Under the pieces are notes generated by a model. The model was not told the origin of the DNA, did no database searches, and saw only the letters and a program-made list of their open reading frames with translations. A DNA stretch of 45,964 bases. It comes from a virus. Each line of letters starts with the position of its first letter. The first letter of the stretch is position 1. The stretch spans positions 1 to 45,964 of the IMG/VR virus record IMGVR_UViG_3300045241_000089, one strand, 5' to 3'. Below, piece after piece: positions 513 to 30,285 of this stretch. The position numbers and the translations under genes are program-made.

Positions 513-2414
513 TCAGGACTTCCGGAACTGGGCGAAATACGTGAACGAATCTACAACGAAGGGTTCCGCGCTGTTGTTCCCCCAGCCCACGCTCCAGTTG
601 AACGCGACACCCGGACTGTAGATGCGAGCTTGGCCAACTTCAGTTTCGCCGCCCCAGGTCGCTTCGGTGCCTTCGACTTCTTTCGCCCACCTGCCTTCGC
701 CTTCCGCCCACGATTCAGCCCCCGAGGCGAAATTCGTAGGAACTTTCACGTTGTACTGTTCTTCGTTCCCGACTACCGCCGCGAGCTGGGTTTCCGACTG
801 CGTAAAGTCCTTGAACACCGCCGGCACGATCTGACCTTCCCCGTTGAAGAAGATCTGACGGATCCGCTTCTTCAAGAACGGTGCGTGAACCCGGTGGCGG
901 AAAATGTAGTAGGCGAACGATTCCCAGTTCGTCAGGAAATACGCGCCCATCAGACCGTTCCCCGCATAGTTGGAGCCGAGGTCGGTGTAGATGCCTTCCT
1001 TGAACGCTTCCGCTATCCCCTTCCCAGACCCCTTAGGAAGAAGGAATAACGTCTCCTTGCCAGATGAGGGCTCCTGTAGCGCCCAGCAGGGTCCCGCAAG
1101 GTCATGCAGCCACCAGGATTTCAGGACTAGATCATAGTCGAGCGTTTTGTTGTTTTCCGTGCTCGTCGCTGAGGCGAAGGAAACGTAGTAGTGGTTGTCG
1201 AAATACACCCCCGCCACGTTTTCCCGTTGCGCCGGGTTCAGACCAAGGATCGTCGGACGCACCAGATAGGACATCTCCGTGACCGCAGAACCGTTGGTCA
1301 GGTAGACCCCGGAGTCCTTCGTCAGGAAGAACGTGCCGTGCGGGCTCTCGACAACGCTACGGTGCGCGATACACCCGATGCTGGTGCTGATCCTGCGGTT
1401 GGCCCCGGTGTTGATGTCGTGGATCGCCCACAACTTTTCCTCCTTGAAAATCAGGATGTACGGACCAACGTGGCCTATCGCCATGATCGGGTTTTCGTCG
1501 GAGGCGTCGAAGCGCACGACGTTCGTGTTCGGCCACTGGCTGGGGTCGGCTTGGGCGCCCCCTTCCCCGATACTGGTGAGTTCGGTGAACCAGACCGCAG
1601 ACTGGTCTTCTTTGATCCCCGTCATCCAGATCCGGTTCCCGAAGAAGATCATGTACTGGCCGTTCGGGACGTGTTCGCCTTTTTCGTAGAAGTTCCGTTC
1701 CAACGTGAATTCGAGGGTGGCTTTCGTTTCCTTCCACCCGTTTTCCCCCGGCAACGCAAGGACAGCTTCGTGGGTGGGCGTGATAGCTTCGATCTCTGCC
1801 CGCTTGATTTTGACTTCCGTCCCGCCTTCCCCCAGCACGGTCTGTTCGGCGGCGAATTCGACCCACAGGCCGATGTCCGATTCGAAGAATTTCGCTTCCG
1901 TTGACTTCAACAGGTTCGTGTGGGCAACGACTTCCCCGTCTTTGGGTTTCTGCGCAGACCCCAGCCCTTTCCATTCTTTGACTTCCCCCGTCCCCGTCCA
2001 AGTCTGGGGCGCATCCACCCCGTTGACCAGGTAGATCGGACCCTGAGAGCCAACTGCTGTTGATTTGGGGGCCTGCACTATCGACCAGCGGGCGGTTGCA
2101 TTGAAGCCTTTGCCGATTTCCGCCACGACACCGGCCATCGTGACCGACCAGATCTTCCCGCCGCCCGCCACGATCAGATACCGTGTCCCGCTGATGAGAC
2201 ACGGGAACATTGTTGTCAGGGTGACGGCGGAAACCTTGGCGAGTTCTGCGCCTTTGAGGAACTGTTCGGACCCATAACGCTTGCGGATCGCGCCGCGCTC
2301 GGTCGATACGACGTTGAGGCAGTCCCGGGACTCGTTCTGCTCGACAAGGTACGGATTGCTGATGGTGTTCAGCCCGTTCGTCCAGCCGGACATGAGGAAC
2401 GGAGTCCCGCGCAT
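513..2414 (-). CDS. Tail tube/stabilisation protein (P22 gp10-like, inferred)
   Basis: 633 aa. The N-terminus (GWTNGLNTISNPYLVEQNES, then LNVVSTERGAIRKRYGS) is typical of podovirus tail proteins that open with a list of conserved Asn, Pro and Arg residues before a beta-propeller-like body; repeated strands such as YLIVAGGGKIWSV, IYLVNG and MIFFGNRIWMTG fit such a fold. The gene lies after coat and the gp4-like adaptor, the position of P22 gene 10, the packaged-DNA stabilisation tail factor. ATG directly follows the TAG of the 60-aa gene. The family is inferred from fold pattern and order, not from a search; a general minor tail protein is the alternative. Confidence 0.6.
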   Translation of the reverse strand: MRGTPFLMSGWTNGLNTISNPYLVEQNESRDCLNVVSTERGAIRKRYGSEQFLKGAELAKVSAVTLTTMFPCLISGTRYLIVAGGGKIWSVTMAGVVAEIGKGFNATARWSIVQAPKSTAVGSQGPIYLVNGVDAPQTWTGTGEVKEWKGLGSAQKPKDGEVVAHTNLLKSTEAKFFESDIGLWVEFAAEQTVLGEGGTEVKIKRAEIEAITPTHEAVLALPGENGWKETKATLEFTLERNFYEKGEHVPNGQYMIFFGNRIWMTGIKEDQSAVWFTELTSIGEGGAQADPSQWPNTNVVRFDASDENPIMAIGHVGPYILIFKEEKLWAIHDINTGANRRISTSIGCIAHRSVVESPHGTFFLTKDSGVYLTNGSAVTEMSYLVRPTILGLNPAQRENVAGVYFDNHYYVSFASATSTENNKTLDYDLVLKSWWLHDLAGPCWALQEPSSGKETLFLLPKGSGKGIAEAFKEGIYTDLGSNYAGNGLMGAYFLTNWESFAYYIFRHRVHAPFLKKRIRQIFFNGEGQIVPAVFKDFTQSETQLAAVVGNEEQYNVKVPTNFASGAESWAEGEGRWAKEVEGTEATWGGETEVGQARIYSPGVAFNWSVGWGNNSAEPFVVDSFTYFAQFRKS

Positions 2415-3882: not shown

Positions 3883-4266
3883 CTATTTGCCGATCAGAGC
3901 CACCGTCAGGGTGCATTTTTTCGGCAATTCCGATTCGGAGGCCACCTCTTTGTTGTTCGCGGTCGTGATCGATTCGTAGGCCTGGACCTTCACAGCCTGG
4001 GCTTCGCTTTTCGTACCGCCCGCGTTCGTGATGTTGAGCTGGACGATCGGGTATGCAGCGTTTTTCGCGACCAGCCCTGACGTGACGATCCAGCCACAGT
4101 CCACCTGGGCCAGCGTCAGGCCGAGTTCTTCCAGCTGTTTCGTGCTGATTTCGCAGCCTTCGGTTTTGTATTTCGCGGGGAATTCGACTTCCCCTACGAC
4201 AAGCAGTCGCGCCCCGATCTTCTCACTGAAGAGCGGTTTGACCGCTGCGATGTTTTCTTGTGCCAT
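3883..4266 (-). CDS. Virion-module protein, unknown (possible capsid decoration)
   Basis: 127 aa. AAGGAG lies 5 nt before the ATG. The product is Ala/Val/Thr rich with beta-type segments (ARLLVVGEVEFPAKY, CGWIVTSGLVAKNAAYPIVQ, CTLTVALIG) and two central Cys. It is the first minus-strand gene after coat, separated from it by the inserted plus-strand HNH gene. A decoration or head completion role is only inferred from position; no family was recognised. Confidence 0.6.
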   Translation of the reverse strand: MAQENIAAVKPLFSEKIGARLLVVGEVEFPAKYKTEGCEISTKQLEELGLTLAQVDCGWIVTSGLVAKNAAYPIVQLNITNAGGTKSEAQAVKVQAYESITTANNKEVASESELPKKCTLTVALIGK

Positions 4267-4299: not shown

Positions 4300-4887
4300 A
4301 TGGAGATTCCTCACGGCTTTTGTCAATGCGGTTGCGGTCAAGAAACGCCAGTTCATCGTAAGACGAACCGTACATACGGCTCAGTCAAGGGCGAGCGAAT
4401 GGACTACATCCACGGCCACAATCGCCGCAAATACACAGACGGCGATCAGCACCGCAAGACCTATCTAGCCGCTTACTACCTAGCGCACAAAAAGCAGATC
4501 TCAGAACGAGAAGCCGCCCGTTACAAGCGTAAACGAGAGGAAATCCTCAAACGAAATGCGGCTTACAAAACCAAGTGGGCAGCTACACCCAAAGGACAAG
4601 CCATCGGCTTCCGCGAAAATGGTCGCCGTCGTGCGCGCAAGCGATCAGCCTTCGTGGAAGACATAAGCCGTGCTCGCGTATTCTCCCGAGACAAAGGTAT
4701 TTGTGGGATCTGCGGCAAGGCCGTGGATCCCGACAACTGGCACCTAGATCACATCATTCCGCTTGGTCCGGGCGACCATAGCTATGAGAACGTTCGGGTT
4801 ACACACCCCGAATGTAATCTAGCCAAGATCGCCCAAGACCAACGCGAAATTGCTAAGTGGCGAGAAGAACCCGCAACTCTGTTTTAG
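4300..4887 (+). CDS. HNH homing endonuclease 1, inserted antisense beside coat gene
   Basis: 195 aa. N-terminus FCQCGCGQETPVHR with a close Cys cluster and IHGHNRR, a highly basic helical middle (residues 60-115), and a C-terminal HNH module: C135-x2-C138 (ICGIC), LDHIIPL with D150-H151, NVRVTHPECN with the second half of the zinc site near C172. HNH proteins of this type are free-standing homing nucleases. It sits between coat and the 127-aa gene on the opposite strand, and its TAG overlaps the coat TAA by 4 nt (convergent). Own -10 box at 4285. It is likely a mobile gene that settled between conserved virion genes. Confidence 0.88.
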   Translation: MEIPHGFCQCGCGQETPVHRKTNRTYGSVKGERMDYIHGHNRRKYTDGDQHRKTYLAAYYLAHKKQISEREAARYKRKREEILKRNAAYKTKWAATPKGQAIGFRENGRRRARKRSAFVEDISRARVFSRDKGICGICGKAVDPDNWHLDHIIPLGPGDHSYENVRVTHPECNLAKIAQDQREIAKWREEPATLF

Positions 4888-10101: not shown

Positions 10102-10688
10102 CACTTCTTGGCGGCGTACATCTCGCGGGCCTTCTGAGCGGCTTTGCCCCAGCCGTCCCCGCCCAGACCCTCTTTCGCGAACGGCGGGACACCCTCGAAT
10201 TCGGCTTTCTTGTTCTTGTCCGGGGGAGCCTTCGCGGGAGGACGCACGTCCCCGACTTTGCCCTCGCCCTCAGGAGCAGGCCCCGGAGTGTTGGACACCG
10301 CATTCCCAGCGCTCGAGCGCTCCTTCTCGAGCTCCTTTATCGCAGCCTGGCGGCGGATGTCGCTCAGGACGCCCGAGACGGCGTGTGGGGCGGGTTTAGC
10401 GGACCGCCTGTTGCCCCCTGAGGGCACTGGGCCGTGTCCTGAGAGGTTCTGGTCGCCCTTGCTGTTCTCGGCGCTGTCAGCGGGCCTATCGGGCTTGTTG
10501 CCCATGTCGCCCTGGGGACGGTTGGAGAGCTTGTTCCCGGCTCCCCCGTCGTGTCCCTGCTCGGCGGACATGCGGGCCTCCTGCATGCCGGGAGACTGGG
10601 AGATCTCGCCGCCGAGGCCCCTGCCTCGTTCGATTTCTTTCTTGGCGCGCTCCATGAGAGCGATCGCCTCCTCATGTGCGCTGGCCAT
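10101..10688 (-). CDS. Hydrophilic disordered protein after portal
   Basis: 195 aa. The ATG lies 17 nt inside the end of the portal gene. Rich in Gly, Pro, Ala and charged residues, with a helical start (ASAHEEAIALMERAKKEIER) and a C-terminal GDGWGKAAQKAREMYAAKK motif. Mostly low complexity, so probably disordered. It lies where some phages carry a small head or scaffold-associated protein after portal. No function can be assigned. Confidence 0.6.
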   Translation of the reverse strand: MASAHEEAIALMERAKKEIERGRGLGGEISQSPGMQEARMSAEQGHDGGAGNKLSNRPQGDMGNKPDRPADSAENSKGDQNLSGHGPVPSGGNRRSAKPAPHAVSGVLSDIRRQAAIKELEKERSSAGNAVSNTPGPAPEGEGKVGDVRPPAKAPPDKNKKAEFEGVPPFAKEGLGGDGWGKAAQKAREMYAAKK

Positions 10689-12399
10689 TTGCTCCTCCTG
10701 CTGGGGTCGGTGATGGCGCTCCGTTTGAAGCGCCTGGTGCTTGGGGCTGTTGGACCATCGGGGCCATCGCCGCCATCAACTGCTGCCGGTGTTCATTCAC
10801 GTGGTTTTCCATGATCTGGCCGATCTGCGGACCGAGCTGCTTGTACGTCGGCCCCTTCTGGAATTCCTCGTGCCCTTCGACGTGCGCCTCGTGGTTGTCG
10901 TAGGCGTTGATCATCACCGGGATACCCGTGCTGATTTCCTGATTCTCCCGGTTGATCTGGGACTCGTCCTCGTTGATGTTCCCGAACAGTTTCGCCAGCG
11001 CCCCGGCCTCATAATCTTCAAGAACCTTCGCGAGCATCCGCTTGGGCATGGGCTGCTGGCCCTCGTACTGGAACACCAGGTTGAGAATGTCTTGGATCGC
11101 GGCCTGTTTCGCGGCCTTGGATTTCGGGAACATGGATCCGGCCTGCACTTCGACCTCCGTGTTCTCCCTGAGGGCTGCGCCCTTGAAGATCAGGCTGTCG
11201 AGCTGGTGGTCCTTACCGGCGATCATGATGGTCCGTTCGTCTGTGTAGTACTTCGCCACGAGCTTCAGAAGCATGGATCCGGCTACGCCGAGGTTTTCCT
11301 CCATGTCATAGATGCTCGGTCCGAGACGGGTGTCGTCGGCTTCCTGGAGCAGATTGATCGCAGAGGCCGCCTTTACGCCTGCGGGCACCTGGGCGTTTGA
11401 GACCTCATGCTGCCCTGAGATGTCCTGCATCGACTGTTCGATCCGTTCCTGCTGCTGGATCACGTAGGCGGGCATCGGGGGCGCCTGGAGATAGCTTGGT
11501 ATCGCGTTCTGAGTCGTGTCGTCGTAGTCGATCCGCTCTCCGGGGACACCGGAGTAGCTGATGTTGGCCTGGCGGCTGGACATGAACGCAGGGTTCCCGG
11601 TCCTCTGGGCGGACTCCAAAATCTGGGAGCGGATCTTGTTCAGCTCCGTCTGCGGGTTCCTGAGCTGCTCAACCGTCGATGTGGGCCAGAACCGGCCGGG
11701 GATGGGGACACCCGTGAACATCACGTAGGGGAGCGTCCCGTAGGGGTTCGGCCCTTCGAAAAGGATTTTGCCCTTACACCAGACCGCCCTGCGACCTTCC
11801 GGGTGGGTTTCATTCGGCTTGCACCAGTACTCGTGGAGCTTCACGCCCTTATAGTTGCTGGTGCCGCCCATCTGGTAGGACGGAAACATCCTCGCTTCAG
11901 TCGGCCCCGGAGCAATGTCCGTGTCTGTCGAGACGATGACCCCGTAGTGCTGTTTGACGTATTCCTGGGACTTCACGTTCTCCTGGATGCACCACTCCGC
12001 ATCTTCAAGACGGGTGGCGATGGGATCCGCGAGGAATTCGAACGGGGCGACCGTTTCAACCAGAACATCCCCAGTGGCAATAGTCTTGGCCTGGACGCCC
12101 TCGGGGATTTCTTCCAGCTGCTCCGGTTTCATCGGAGCGCCCGTTTCCGCGTGCAGGACAGGCTTGCCTTCATTGTCCGCGAGCACCTGGACCTTCTTGC
12201 CCTTCGCGTTGTCCCAGACGATCTTCCAAAGCCCCGTGCCCGTGATACGGCTCCATAGGAGCACATCTACGAGCTTGTTCCTTAGATGCTGCTGGCGCCA
12301 GAGGTAGTCAAGGATCTTCTCGCCCATCAACGCCGCCTGAACATCCGCCTCGTCCTTTGAGGTCGGGACGATCTGGAACGCCGGCTTCTGCTTGGTCAT
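10672..12399 (-). CDS. Portal protein, main part (N-terminus frameshifted)
   Basis: 575 aa from ATG 12399. Forms the ring through which DNA enters and leaves the head. Signs: MTKQKPAFQIVPTSKDEADV, ILDYLWRQQHLRNKL, SRITGTGLWKIVWD, VAPFEFLADP, FWPTSTVEQLRNPQTELNKI and LVAKYYTDERTIMIAG, the usual order of P22/SPP1-type portal blocks. The same frame is open upstream without a start codon and encodes FWNRGRLDRPRLD, VTLTDNRIIGIVRTELAK, which belong to the portal; the rest of the N-terminus lies in another frame at 12503-12670. The ATG 12399 has GGAG 9 nt upstream and could start a shortened product. Confidence 0.88.
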   Translation of the reverse strand: MTKQKPAFQIVPTSKDEADVQAALMGEKILDYLWRQQHLRNKLVDVLLWSRITGTGLWKIVWDNAKGKKVQVLADNEGKPVLHAETGAPMKPEQLEEIPEGVQAKTIATGDVLVETVAPFEFLADPIATRLEDAEWCIQENVKSQEYVKQHYGVIVSTDTDIAPGPTEARMFPSYQMGGTSNYKGVKLHEYWCKPNETHPEGRRAVWCKGKILFEGPNPYGTLPYVMFTGVPIPGRFWPTSTVEQLRNPQTELNKIRSQILESAQRTGNPAFMSSRQANISYSGVPGERIDYDDTTQNAIPSYLQAPPMPAYVIQQQERIEQSMQDISGQHEVSNAQVPAGVKAASAINLLQEADDTRLGPSIYDMEENLGVAGSMLLKLVAKYYTDERTIMIAGKDHQLDSLIFKGAALRENTEVEVQAGSMFPKSKAAKQAAIQDILNLVFQYEGQQPMPKRMLAKVLEDYEAGALAKLFGNINEDESQINRENQEISTGIPVMINAYDNHEAHVEGHEEFQKGPTYKQLGPQIGQIMENHVNEHRQQLMAAMAPMVQQPQAPGASNGAPSPTPAGGANGQRT

Positions 12400-12502
12400 C
12401 TTCGCCAGCTCCGTGCGGACGATCCCGATGATCCGGTTGTCGGTGAGGGTTACGCGGTGGGGGTCGAGTCTAGGTCTGTCTAGGCGGCCACGGTTCCAGA
12501 AG

Positions 12503-12670
12503 TCAGAACAGCCACTGTTCCCCGAAGTAATAGGCGTAATTTAGGTGCCATGTCGGTTCGAATCGACTACGGGCGCCCCTTGCCATGCTGAGAAGCTTGT
12601 CAAGATCGGCCACGGTTTGATCTTTATAGTCGAGTTGATTCGACGGGGGAACGGGGATAGTGGCTGTCAT
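12503..12670 (-). pseudogene. Portal N-terminus in separate frame (frameshift)
   Basis: 55 codons from ATG 12670 with a near perfect ribosome site (AAGGAGGTGATC, 8 nt before ATG). The product ends ARSRFEPTWHLNYAYYFGEQ WLF then TGA. These are the residues expected just before WNRGRLDRP in a portal. Moving to the +1 frame at TTC-TGA-C (skip T12505) joins it to the 575-aa frame and gives about 665 aa. Removing the 7 nt TGACTTC would join WLF to WNRG directly. It may be a programmed +1 shift at a UGA stop, a natural mutation, or a sequence error; the sequence alone cannot decide. Confidence 0.8.
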
Positions 12671-12697
12671 GTGAGATCACCTCCTTTCAAAGTCGTG

Positions 12698-12709: not shown

Positions 12710-13132
12710 ATGCCCAAGGGTATCTACCCACGCAAGAGCGGCTATGTGCGCAAACTGCGAAGCCCCGAGGACCGATACTGGCGGAAAGTTCACAAGATCA
12801 AAGATGGATGCTGGCTGTGGCGGGGCGCGCTATCTAGCAGAGGCTACGGGAACTTCACGATTCGCCGCAGACAATTCGGGGCACATCGCTACTCCTACGA
12901 ACTAGCCTATGGCCCAATCCCCGATGATCTCTGCGTCTGCCATAGCTGCGACGTACGGAACTGCGTCAACCCCGCACATCTCTTTCTCGGGACCACCCAA
13001 GACAACGTGGACGACATGATGGCGAAGGGCCGTGGCAATCGCCAGTTTCAGCGACCCCTGTCCTGCGAATGTGGCCGCTGCATCAAGTGTCGGGACCGAG
13101 AACGAAAGCGAGCCAAGCGAAGGTCTTTATAG
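12710..13132 (+). CDS. HNH homing endonuclease 2, inserted antisense before portal
   Basis: 140 aa. Contains DGCWLWRGALSSRGYGNF, then AHRYSYELAYGPIPDDLCVC, HSCDVRNCVNPAHLFLGTTQ and DNVDDMMAKGR: the HNH_3 type nuclease in which H-x-C-D-x-x-x-C-V-N-P-x-H-L forms the ββα-metal core. C-terminal CECGRCIKC could bind zinc, followed by a basic tail. A longer frame starts at 12545 but the TACAAT box and composition favour ATG 12710. It runs against the portal gene on one side and the 136-aa gene on the other. The 93 bp after it (13133-13225) hold no gene. Confidence 0.88.
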   Translation: MPKGIYPRKSGYVRKLRSPEDRYWRKVHKIKDGCWLWRGALSSRGYGNFTIRRRQFGAHRYSYELAYGPIPDDLCVCHSCDVRNCVNPAHLFLGTTQDNVDDMMAKGRGNRQFQRPLSCECGRCIKCRDRERKRAKRRSL

Positions 13133-19553: not shown

Positions 19554-19614
19554 GAATGATCCAGATGACCGCGACAATGATCGCCAGAATCACAAGGACG
19601 GCAATCAGGCTCAT
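19540..19614 (-). CDS. 24-aa single-span membrane peptide
   Basis: ATG 19614 overlaps the TGA of the HNH gene (ATGA). Almost the whole peptide is hydrophobic (LIAVLVILAIIVAVIWII) with an Arg-containing end. The length, overlap and clean TM character support a real micro-gene, one of several here. Function unknown; in the P22-like order nothing is expected at this point. Confidence 0.6.
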   Translation of the reverse strand: MSLIAVLVILAIIVAVIWIIRALR

Positions 19615-20138
19615 AGGATCTCCTTCAAGTTCGAGGTCTTCGCGCCAGCACCAACAAACGGGCTCACGTAGGATTCCGGCTCGACCCCGGGACTCCGGAC
19701 GACCATCTTTGGATGCTCGCCGTTATGGCAGGGACGACAAAGCACAAGCACGTTTGAAGGCACGTGAGGGCCGCCCTGGGCCACCGGAACGATGTGATGG
19801 ACCTCCAGCCCATCCAGGACCCCGCACCGCTCACAGACCCCCCCACGCTCCAGGATGAACAGCCGACGATAGTAGTTAGAGTTCCCCCGCTCGCCCCTTC
19901 GCGACTTATTGTTCCAGCGCCGACCGCAGTATTCCGAGCAAGCGACCTGCCGCTCCATCCGGGGCTGAAACCGCTCCCCACACATCACACAGGTCTTCTC
20001 AGCCAACTTCTTGGCTTTGCCCTTCTCCCGGCCATACTTCGCCGCGCTCCGACAGCTCTTCGAGCAGTAGTCAGGCCGACGCCCCGGAACGTGGGGATTC
20101 TTCGCAGGGAGCGGAGTATCGCACCATAGGCAATTCAT
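19611..20138 (-). CDS. HNH endonuclease 3 with zinc fingers, near terminase
   Basis: 175 aa. Zinc pairs in MNCLWC, YCSKSC, TCVMC and ACSEYC (two treble-clef-like fingers), then the HNH core VCERCGVLDGLEVHHIVPVA with NVLVLCRPCHNGEH. HNH proteins close to terminase genes often help packaging-linked cleavage, but a homing nuclease is equally possible. It is first in the leftward virion block; TAGACT lies 6 nt before ATG 20138, so the mRNA would be leaderless. Confidence 0.85.
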   Translation of the reverse strand: MNCLWCDTPLPAKNPHVPGRRPDYCSKSCRSAAKYGREKGKAKKLAEKTCVMCGERFQPRMERQVACSEYCGRRWNNKSRRGERGNSNYYRRLFILERGGVCERCGVLDGLEVHHIVPVAQGGPHVPSNVLVLCRPCHNGEHPKMVVRSPGVEPESYVSPFVGAGAKTSNLKEIL

Positions 20139-29610: not shown

Positions 29611-29821
29611 TGCGCGTCAACTCGGCGCGCTTTGCTGTTTCTGGGCTGTTGGGGACTCGCTGAGCTTGTGCCCACTCATCGACTAGTGGCGGACTAATCT
29701 TCGTCCAGCCCAACTTGCGAACATCCAGCTTCGCGCAGCGCTGACACGTCCGAACCTGCACGGCGTCATAGCCGTAGCCTTCGTGCGGAACGCCCCATTG
29801 CGTCCATCGGTGCCTATGCAT
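29603..29821 (-). CDS. 72-aa protein with CxxC, unknown
   Basis: ATG 29821 overlaps the end of the HNH gene by 8 nt. HRHRWTQWGVPHEGYGYDAV then QVRTCQRCAKLDVRKLGWTK: Trp/His/Cys rich start that may bind zinc (CQRC). Similar short zinc proteins occur in actinophages. Confidence 0.55.
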   Translation of the reverse strand: MHRHRWTQWGVPHEGYGYDAVQVRTCQRCAKLDVRKLGWTKISPPLVDEWAQAQRVPNSPETAKRAELTRNA

Positions 29822-30131
29822 CTCTAACCGCCCCTCCGGGGTAGTTCTTCTCCAAGAACCGCTCCTGAGAGCCAGTCGTAGCCAAATGCTCCGCGTGCTT
29901 GACAAGGCTCCGGGGGATCCGTTTCGCCCACGAATGATGGTCCATGTGGCATTTGGCGCACAGCGAGAGTAGATTTGCCGGCTCATCAGCGAGATCCGGG
30001 TATTTGGACTGGGGCCAGATGTGATGATGGGATGTTGCACGGCCTCCACACATCGCGCAGATGCCCCCTGACCGCTCGAAAGCAGCTTCCGCGCTCTCGA
30101 TGCTCAGTCTAGGCTTGGTCTTTGAGGGCAC
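29814..30131 (-). CDS. HNH endonuclease 4
   Basis: 105 aa from GTG 30131; the longer frame to 30194 lies in the upstream gene. SIESAEAAFERSGGICAMCG, RATSHHHIWPQSKYPDLADE, NLLSLCAKCHMDHHSWAKRI: C-x2-C, HHH core, N-L-x-x-L-C-x-x-C-H. Compact HNH nuclease in the early operon, in line with its neighbours, so less clearly a mobile insert than HNH 1 and 2. Confidence 0.8.
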   Translation of the reverse strand: MPSKTKPRLSIESAEAAFERSGGICAMCGGRATSHHHIWPQSKYPDLADEPANLLSLCAKCHMDHHSWAKRIPRSLVKHAEHLATTGSQERFLEKNYPGGAVRDA

Positions 30132-30285
30132 GACGCCTTTCTTCGCGCTCGGTAGTTTCCCGATACATCCTCGACAGCTTCTCGCGGACCTCAACCTCTT
30201 CCTCGGCCCGTTTCTCCTTCAGTGCCCTTGCCTGCTGGAGGCCCATAGACTTGGAGTACCAGGAGTCGGAGCGGTTTTCGTTCAT
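30109..30285 (-). CDS. 58-aa charged helical protein
   Basis: ATG 30285 overlaps the upstream TGA (ATGA). NENRSDSWYSKSMGLQQARA followed by a Glu/Arg-rich helix (LKEKRAEEEVEVREKLSRMY). Not recognised. Confidence 0.55.
   Translation of the reverse strand: MNENRSDSWYSKSMGLQQARALKEKRAEEEVEVREKLSRMYRETTEREERRRALKDQA

Follow-up and report, generated by a model that had tools for sequence, protein, structure and literature searches.

The window, that is, the whole stretch of DNA analysed here, comprises positions 1 to 45,964 of the IMG/VR virus record IMGVR_UViG_3300045241_000089 (45,964 nucleotides). A portal gene lies on its minus strand and is interrupted near its 5' end by a short insert. The features of this locus, together with a second virion gene to which the analysis led, are as follows.

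12710..13132, plus strand: HNH homing-type endonuclease gene (MPKGIYPRKSGYVRK...; PF13392 HNH_3, E=2e-10; phrog_1872 endonuclease, E=1e-31)
12675..12687, minus strand: extreme Shine-Dalgarno (SD) sequence AAAGGAGGTGATC, 13 nt (anti-SD duplex -25.9 kcal/mol)
12506..12670, minus strand: portal N-terminal frame, 55 codons, from ATG 12670 to the candidate take-off codon (by alignment to the N-termini of intact portals)
12506..12508, minus strand: candidate take-off codon TTC (Phe), the last codon before the insert in the register of intact portals
12499..12505, minus strand: 7-nt insert TGACTTC, missing in intact relatives and identical in the L001 portal and the L220 tail gene; its parts are the stop TGA (12505-12503), the spacer C (12502) and the candidate landing codon TTC (12501-12499)
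10672..12498, minus strand: portal downstream frame, in which decoding would resume at TGG 12498 (phrog_156 portal, E=1e-44; PF16510 P22_portal, E=3e-23)
513..2414, minus strand: tail-type virion gene, intact in the window (sole family match weak, to an internal virion protein)

Read on the minus strand, the portal break is TTC-TGAC-TTC-TGG. The N-terminal frame (MTATIPVPP...YYFGEQWLF) ends at TGA 12505-12503, and the portal frame continues in a different phase as (F)WNRGRLDRPRLDP... with the WNRGRLDRP block (12501/12498 to 10672), has no start codon before ATG 12399, and matches P22- and SU10-type portals in profile searches. A preliminary description, made from the letters alone, had called this gene a portal opened by a strong ribosome site and ATG 12670, stopped at that TGA and continued by a frame without an upstream start codon, with an HNH gene beginning 40 nt away; all of this is borne out by the two portal profile matches, the alignment of the N-terminal part to intact portals, the position of the first ATG and the PF13392 match of the HNH frame, which runs divergently from the portal. 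No phage or suppressor tRNA was found in the window. Recoding of UGA throughout was ruled out: in these genomes no stop codon is commoner than TGA, and the window requires a change of frame.

To establish whether the break is real, we compared the portal with those of related phages. Among the seven IMG/VR relatives first found, L002, L003, L004, L006 and L007 encode the portal as one uninterrupted frame in the same register, and at the break site L002 and L006 read YYFGEQWLFWNRGRLDRP, without TGACTTC. L001, a separate assembly whose portal protein is 99% identical, carries exactly the same TGACTTC in the same place, with sequence conservation extending on both sides, and L005 carries a different, in-frame insert of 9 nt (TGACCATTC) a few codons earlier. 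The DNA pattern TTYTGACTTYTGGAAYMG occurs in 48 contigs, and the L001 contig is the only one among these that encodes the portal. No portal relatives were found in the bacterial genome collection. The nearest named phages have actinobacterial hosts; the portals of the named isolates Cellulosimicrobium DS1, Microbacterium Shocker and Arthrobacter Jasmine show 26-28% identity, each annotated as one frame. Assembly or sequencing error was rejected on the strength of the identical insert in the independent L001 contig.

Between the window and L001, dS is 1.31 and dN 0.084 before the insert, and dS is 0.38 and dN 0.015 after it. Because dN is low on both sides, the portal protein has been constrained while both lineages carried the insert, and selection is conserving it upstream and downstream of the break. 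The 7-nt insert, with its identical counterpart in a related phage, is confirmed. The preliminary description had held mutation or sequence error to be the simpler account; this is contradicted by an insert common to L001 across dS 0.4-1.3 with very low dN, and opposed also by 5 further portal inserts, 14 in the tail-type gene and 1 in a third gene. It had also taken an intact single frame in relatives as evidence against recoding. Such frames do occur in the more distant relatives, but these lack the insert and so are no refutation of recoding in phages that carry it.

The wider family was assembled from about 45 portal loci gathered by profile searches and from homologs of the tail-type gene, and 21 distinct short inserts of 1-13 nt were found near gene 5' ends: the interrupted genes are 6 portal genes, 14 tail-type virion genes and 1 probable amidase/lysozyme-type gene. 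In all, 20 of the 74 compared homologs carry an insert. L070, L073 (two inserts) and L075 have further distinct inserts in the same conserved portal stretch, the remaining portal loci being intact; among intact portals this stretch shows zero indels. The striking SD shared by all interrupted portals pointed to the tail-type gene. Of its 38 compared homologs (L213-L250), 14 have a break within the first 6-23 codons, at sites fixed by L245 and L250 (MPSGPPLNF). The third gene was found by inspection in G008, the L142/L143 phage (oriented 22465-22650), where a 13-nt insert breaks the frame as ...GNWL|TTATCCAGCTCTG|NIGITDSG, compared with GYHGTQDWLNIG in the intact G009, with a rare TTA at the break. 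When an insert is removed exactly, the frame falls in every case into the register seen in intact relatives; the 1-nt inserts and the 13-nt G008 case rest on looser homology.

A general tblastn scan for interruptions was too noisy until restricted to non-overlapping open reading frames. Across nine complete contigs it left the portal as the only clearly broken conserved gene on the plus strand, the other break signals coming from antisense or shadow frames, from stretches of low complexity and, in G006, from a decayed HNH gene. Frameshift-aware alignment of N-termini across 24 genomes gave clean breaks only in the portal and tail-type genes.

The inserts share an anatomy, which for several cases is written below as codon before the insert/insert/codon at which the frame resumes.

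TTC/TGACTTC/TGG (window portal)
TTC/TGACCTTC/ATG
TTC/TAACCGGGTTC/CTC
TTC/TGATCTAGTTT/CTG
CTT/TAGCTT/CAC
CTT/TAGCTC/AAC
CTT/TTAGCTC/AAC
TAC/AGACCCAC/CTT
TGG/AGACCCGG/CTA
TTT/C/GAC

This anatomy was compared with random inserts of the same lengths and composition (5000 trials), a null that allows for boundary sliding and not for duplication bias. Of the 21 inserts, 13 begin with a stop codon (null 3.8, maximum 9), and 20 begin with either a stop or a codon among the 12 rarest (null 8.8, maximum 16); the last three insert bases are readable by the take-off tRNA in 12 of 21 (null mean 2.2, maximum 8), and positional matches between take-off and landing number 44 (null mean 20, maximum 33). All these controls gave p<=2e-4, and the result holds for the frame-shifting inserts alone; tandem duplication or microhomology insertion could by itself enrich matched triplets without selection. 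Rare codons in these genomes include TTA, AGA, CTA and CGA; no sense codon is rarer than TTA, at 0.4 per 1000, and among the Arg codons AGA is used least. TGACTTC follows TTC in two different genes (the portal of the window and L001, and the tail gene of L220), and TAGCTC follows CTT at two different tail-gene sites. Landing is near-cognate in several cases (TAC/CAC, TGG/CGG, TTC/TTG, TTC/ATC, GGC/AGC, TTG/CTG), and the match is poor in L005, L244 and L246, whose inserts could be read through or passed by another route. The L070 site reads TAC-AGACC-CAC. Inserts that obey the take-off/landing rule lie in all three frame classes. Their distance from the start ranges from 6 to 57 codons, and thus no single upstream peptide is common to all. 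RNA structure near the sites showed no excess over shuffled controls (folding z -0.25 to +0.66), and no T4-like hairpins rose above the shuffles.

Interruption is associated with both the ribosome-binding site and the neighbouring gene. Anti-SD duplexes range from -18.4 to -25.9 kcal/mol in interrupted portals and are no stronger than -12.2 in 30 intact portals; in the tail gene, 11 of 14 interrupted homologs have a stronger SD than every one of 24 intact ones (interrupted vs intact, p=7e-5 for the portal and 6e-5 for the tail gene). Eight of the 20 interrupted genes (the portals of the window, L001, L005 and L073 and the tail genes of G005, L220, L241 and L246) have an adjoining HNH gene, these endonucleases belonging to at least three families, and no HNH gene lies beside any intact portal or tail gene checked (Fisher's exact test, p about 1e-5, from rounded counts and with related phages treated as independent). 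Twelve interrupted genes have no adjacent HNH gene. The window gene at 3883-4266, of a third family, is intact in both the window and G001 despite adjoining an HNH gene, and a wider search with the HNH family of L001 and L005 gave no further interrupted neighbours as judged by SD. The window and L001 have one common insert but unrelated HNH genes, a pattern that would fit a protected site at which one endonuclease has repeatedly given way to another.

Elsewhere in the window, a second HNH gene at 4300-4887 (plus strand) runs divergently from the gene at 3883-4266 and has a decayed remnant in G006, and two further ones (PF01844) lie at 19611-20138 and 29814-30194 (both minus strand), making four in the 46-kb genome.

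From these sequence patterns we consider it probable that short programmed translational bypassing yields the window portal as a single full-length protein, and that the same design operates in the family. The extreme SD would load ribosomes at a high rate, and 55 codons would be translated up to UUC, whereupon the slowly decoded UGA would occupy the A site. The peptidyl-tRNA-Phe would then dissociate, skip UGAC and re-pair 7 nt further downstream with a UUC identical to the first; decoding would resume at UGG to give ...GEQWLF-WNRG.... In the window the landing TTC is one that the take-off tRNA can re-pair with, and TGA lies directly 3' of the take-off codon. The same design (a take-off codon, a stop or rare codon, a few nucleotides, and a cognate or near-cognate landing codon) would be repeated in the portal, the tail-type gene and the one probable amidase/lysozyme-type gene. 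Most take-off codons are U-rich ones for Phe or Leu, which would pair weakly, and the strong SD may offset incomplete skipping by raising initiation. Since no RNA structure exceeds shuffled controls, hopping would be structure-free and over very short distances.

The HNH associations suggest an origin for this arrangement. The inserts most likely entered or spread within HNH homing-endonuclease cassettes, and they may protect the host gene from a present or former neighbouring homing endonuclease by making the conserved target resist cutting; a phage from which the endonuclease later disappeared would have retained the insert. We put at about even the chance that a clade of tailed phages carries recurrent, possibly mobile bypass elements of 1-13 nt, each a stop or rare codon with a landing codon, in portal and tail-type genes as HNH-coupled resistance marks, with extreme SDs and with essential virion proteins routinely produced by structure-free hopping.

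The alternative closest to the preliminary description, which we judge unlikely, is an RF2-like +1 programmed frameshift at UUC_UGA_C, in which tRNA-Phe slips, reads GAC UUC UGG and adds Asp-Phe before WNRG. A UGA followed by C is a leaky stop context. The window stop has this context, the arithmetic fits the window and L001, and the 1-nt inserts TTT_CGA and TTT_CTA in the tail genes of G003 and G005 are classical +1 sites, with UUU re-pairing as UUC. After slippage, however, tRNA-Phe would face UCU, a poor match, and TTC is preceded by CAGTGGCTG, which offers no internal SD at the 3-nt spacing seen in prfB. The junction products also differ, being ...WLF-DF-WNRG after a +1 shift and ...WLF-WNRG after a 7-nt skip, and the former adds two residues where intact portals show no indels. 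The other inserts, of 4-13 nt, fall in all frame classes and obey the landing rule, and each would need its own -1, +1 or readthrough event, which for most would leave extra residues and demand a different mechanism case by case. The preliminary description had offered both a +1 shift at TTC-TGA-C and loss of the 7 nt as ways to rejoin the frames: both work arithmetically, but only the 7-nt loss matches the register of all intact relatives, and the +1 shift, possible for the window, fails to explain the insert family.

It is quite improbable that the N-terminus is split or dispensable, with translation stopping at TGA and the portal restarting, for example at ATG 12399, or with two pieces associating. 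An ATG is indeed present at 12399, and L073a and L075 have ATG or TTG directly after or at the end of the insert; against this, the 35 codons from the insert to ATG 12399 are conserved between the window and L001 (dN 0.026 vs dS 0.37), as is the N-terminal piece, ATG 12399 is an ordinary internal Met of all intact portals, most inserts have no nearby start codon, and L073 would have an 11-residue middle piece. We think it very improbable that the inserts are mutations that disable the gene, or scars left by endonuclease cutting and repair, in genomes that are defective or rescued by co-infecting intact phages. HNH genes do adjoin many inserts and, on inspection, TTCTG-AC-TTCTG resembles a product of microhomology repair, but the window and L001 share their insert over dS 0.4-1.3 with the protein still strongly constrained, 20 of 74 homologs carry one while other genes are intact, and the stop/rare-codon and landing rules are unexpected from random scars. 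Removal of the insert before translation, by RNA processing or programmed DNA excision, is hardly credible: exact excision would restore register in every case, but the inserts lack common flanks or structure, and no RNA processing is known to excise 1-13 nt without a shared boundary sequence.

Under the bypassing reading, the inserts are best read as naturally occurring "stop-hops", a miniature of T4 gene 60/mobA, where the bypass insert is proposed to confer protection from the endonuclease (PMC5009743, PMC3014915). As in gene 60, the putative take-off and landing codons match, a stop follows take-off directly, the insert lies near the 5' end of a phage gene and an HNH homing endonuclease (mobA in T4) adjoins. 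The T4 gap, however, is 50 nt, compared with 4 nt in the window (a 7-nt jump) and 1-13 nt in the family, and the stimulatory hairpin at the gene 60 take-off site, a trait of that gene and not of short hops, has no detectable counterpart in the window family, so the window case is classed as working like gene 60 and not as a member of its type. Further differences are the involvement of virion genes, the several genes and many phages affected, and the extreme SD upstream. Structure-free short hops of this kind would be closest to the synthetic stop-hops and hungry-codon hops of E. coli (reviewed in PMC5009743), in which, as here, two matched codons lie a few nucleotides from each other on either side of a stop or slow codon. 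CTT-TAG-CTT (L243) and CTT-TAG-CTC (G008) match the synthetic stop-hop layout exactly, although the E. coli cases are artificial constructs and the present inserts natural; no natural in-frame stop-hop was known as of 2016 (PMC5009743).

Mitochondrial byp elements of Magnusiomyces capitatus are similar in having many bypassed inserts distributed among several genes, some with landing matched at two of three positions (PMC5009743), and differ in being block inserts of an organelle with relaxed decoding, with no stop-codon rule or HNH neighbours described in PMC5009743. The terminase of Streptomyces phage Hau3, a virion-assembly gene with a candidate bypass at a rare, slow UUA (PMC5009743), recalls the TTA in L237 and G008, but it is a single case with no HNH gene or short matched-codon pattern described in the same source. 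prfB (RF2) likewise has C after a slow UGA where the shift occurs, whereas the window lacks an internal SD at the right spacing, re-pairing would be poor and relatives have other insert lengths.

Efficient natural bypassing in a bacterial system had been known essentially from one gene, T4 gene 60, and stop-codon recoding in an essential virion gene would, as expected, be new as far as the open-licence literature shows. The sequence evidence suggests that a T4-type ribosome hop is a recurring trick in phage virion or virion-associated genes. Its 21 distinct candidates, all natural and spread over three genes, come with intact sister genes that serve as controls, so that the sequence rules of hopping, the role of stop or hungry codons and protection against homing endonucleases become directly testable. 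Gene callers will mis-annotate such interrupted virion genes as broken.

Two minor observations concern the same genes. The tail genes of L217 and L219 contain an in-frame domain of about 200 residues inserted from about codon 48; these 600-nt insertions were considered as introns and rejected, being in-frame protein domains. In the L073 portal and the G002 and L225 tail genes, the frame that fits the homologs begins with ATC and not with ATG, GTG or TTG (ATCACTGAC, ATCAGGGGC and ATCAGGGGT, respectively), two of the three lying at good spacing from a strong SD, and ATC is a possible start codon in these genes.
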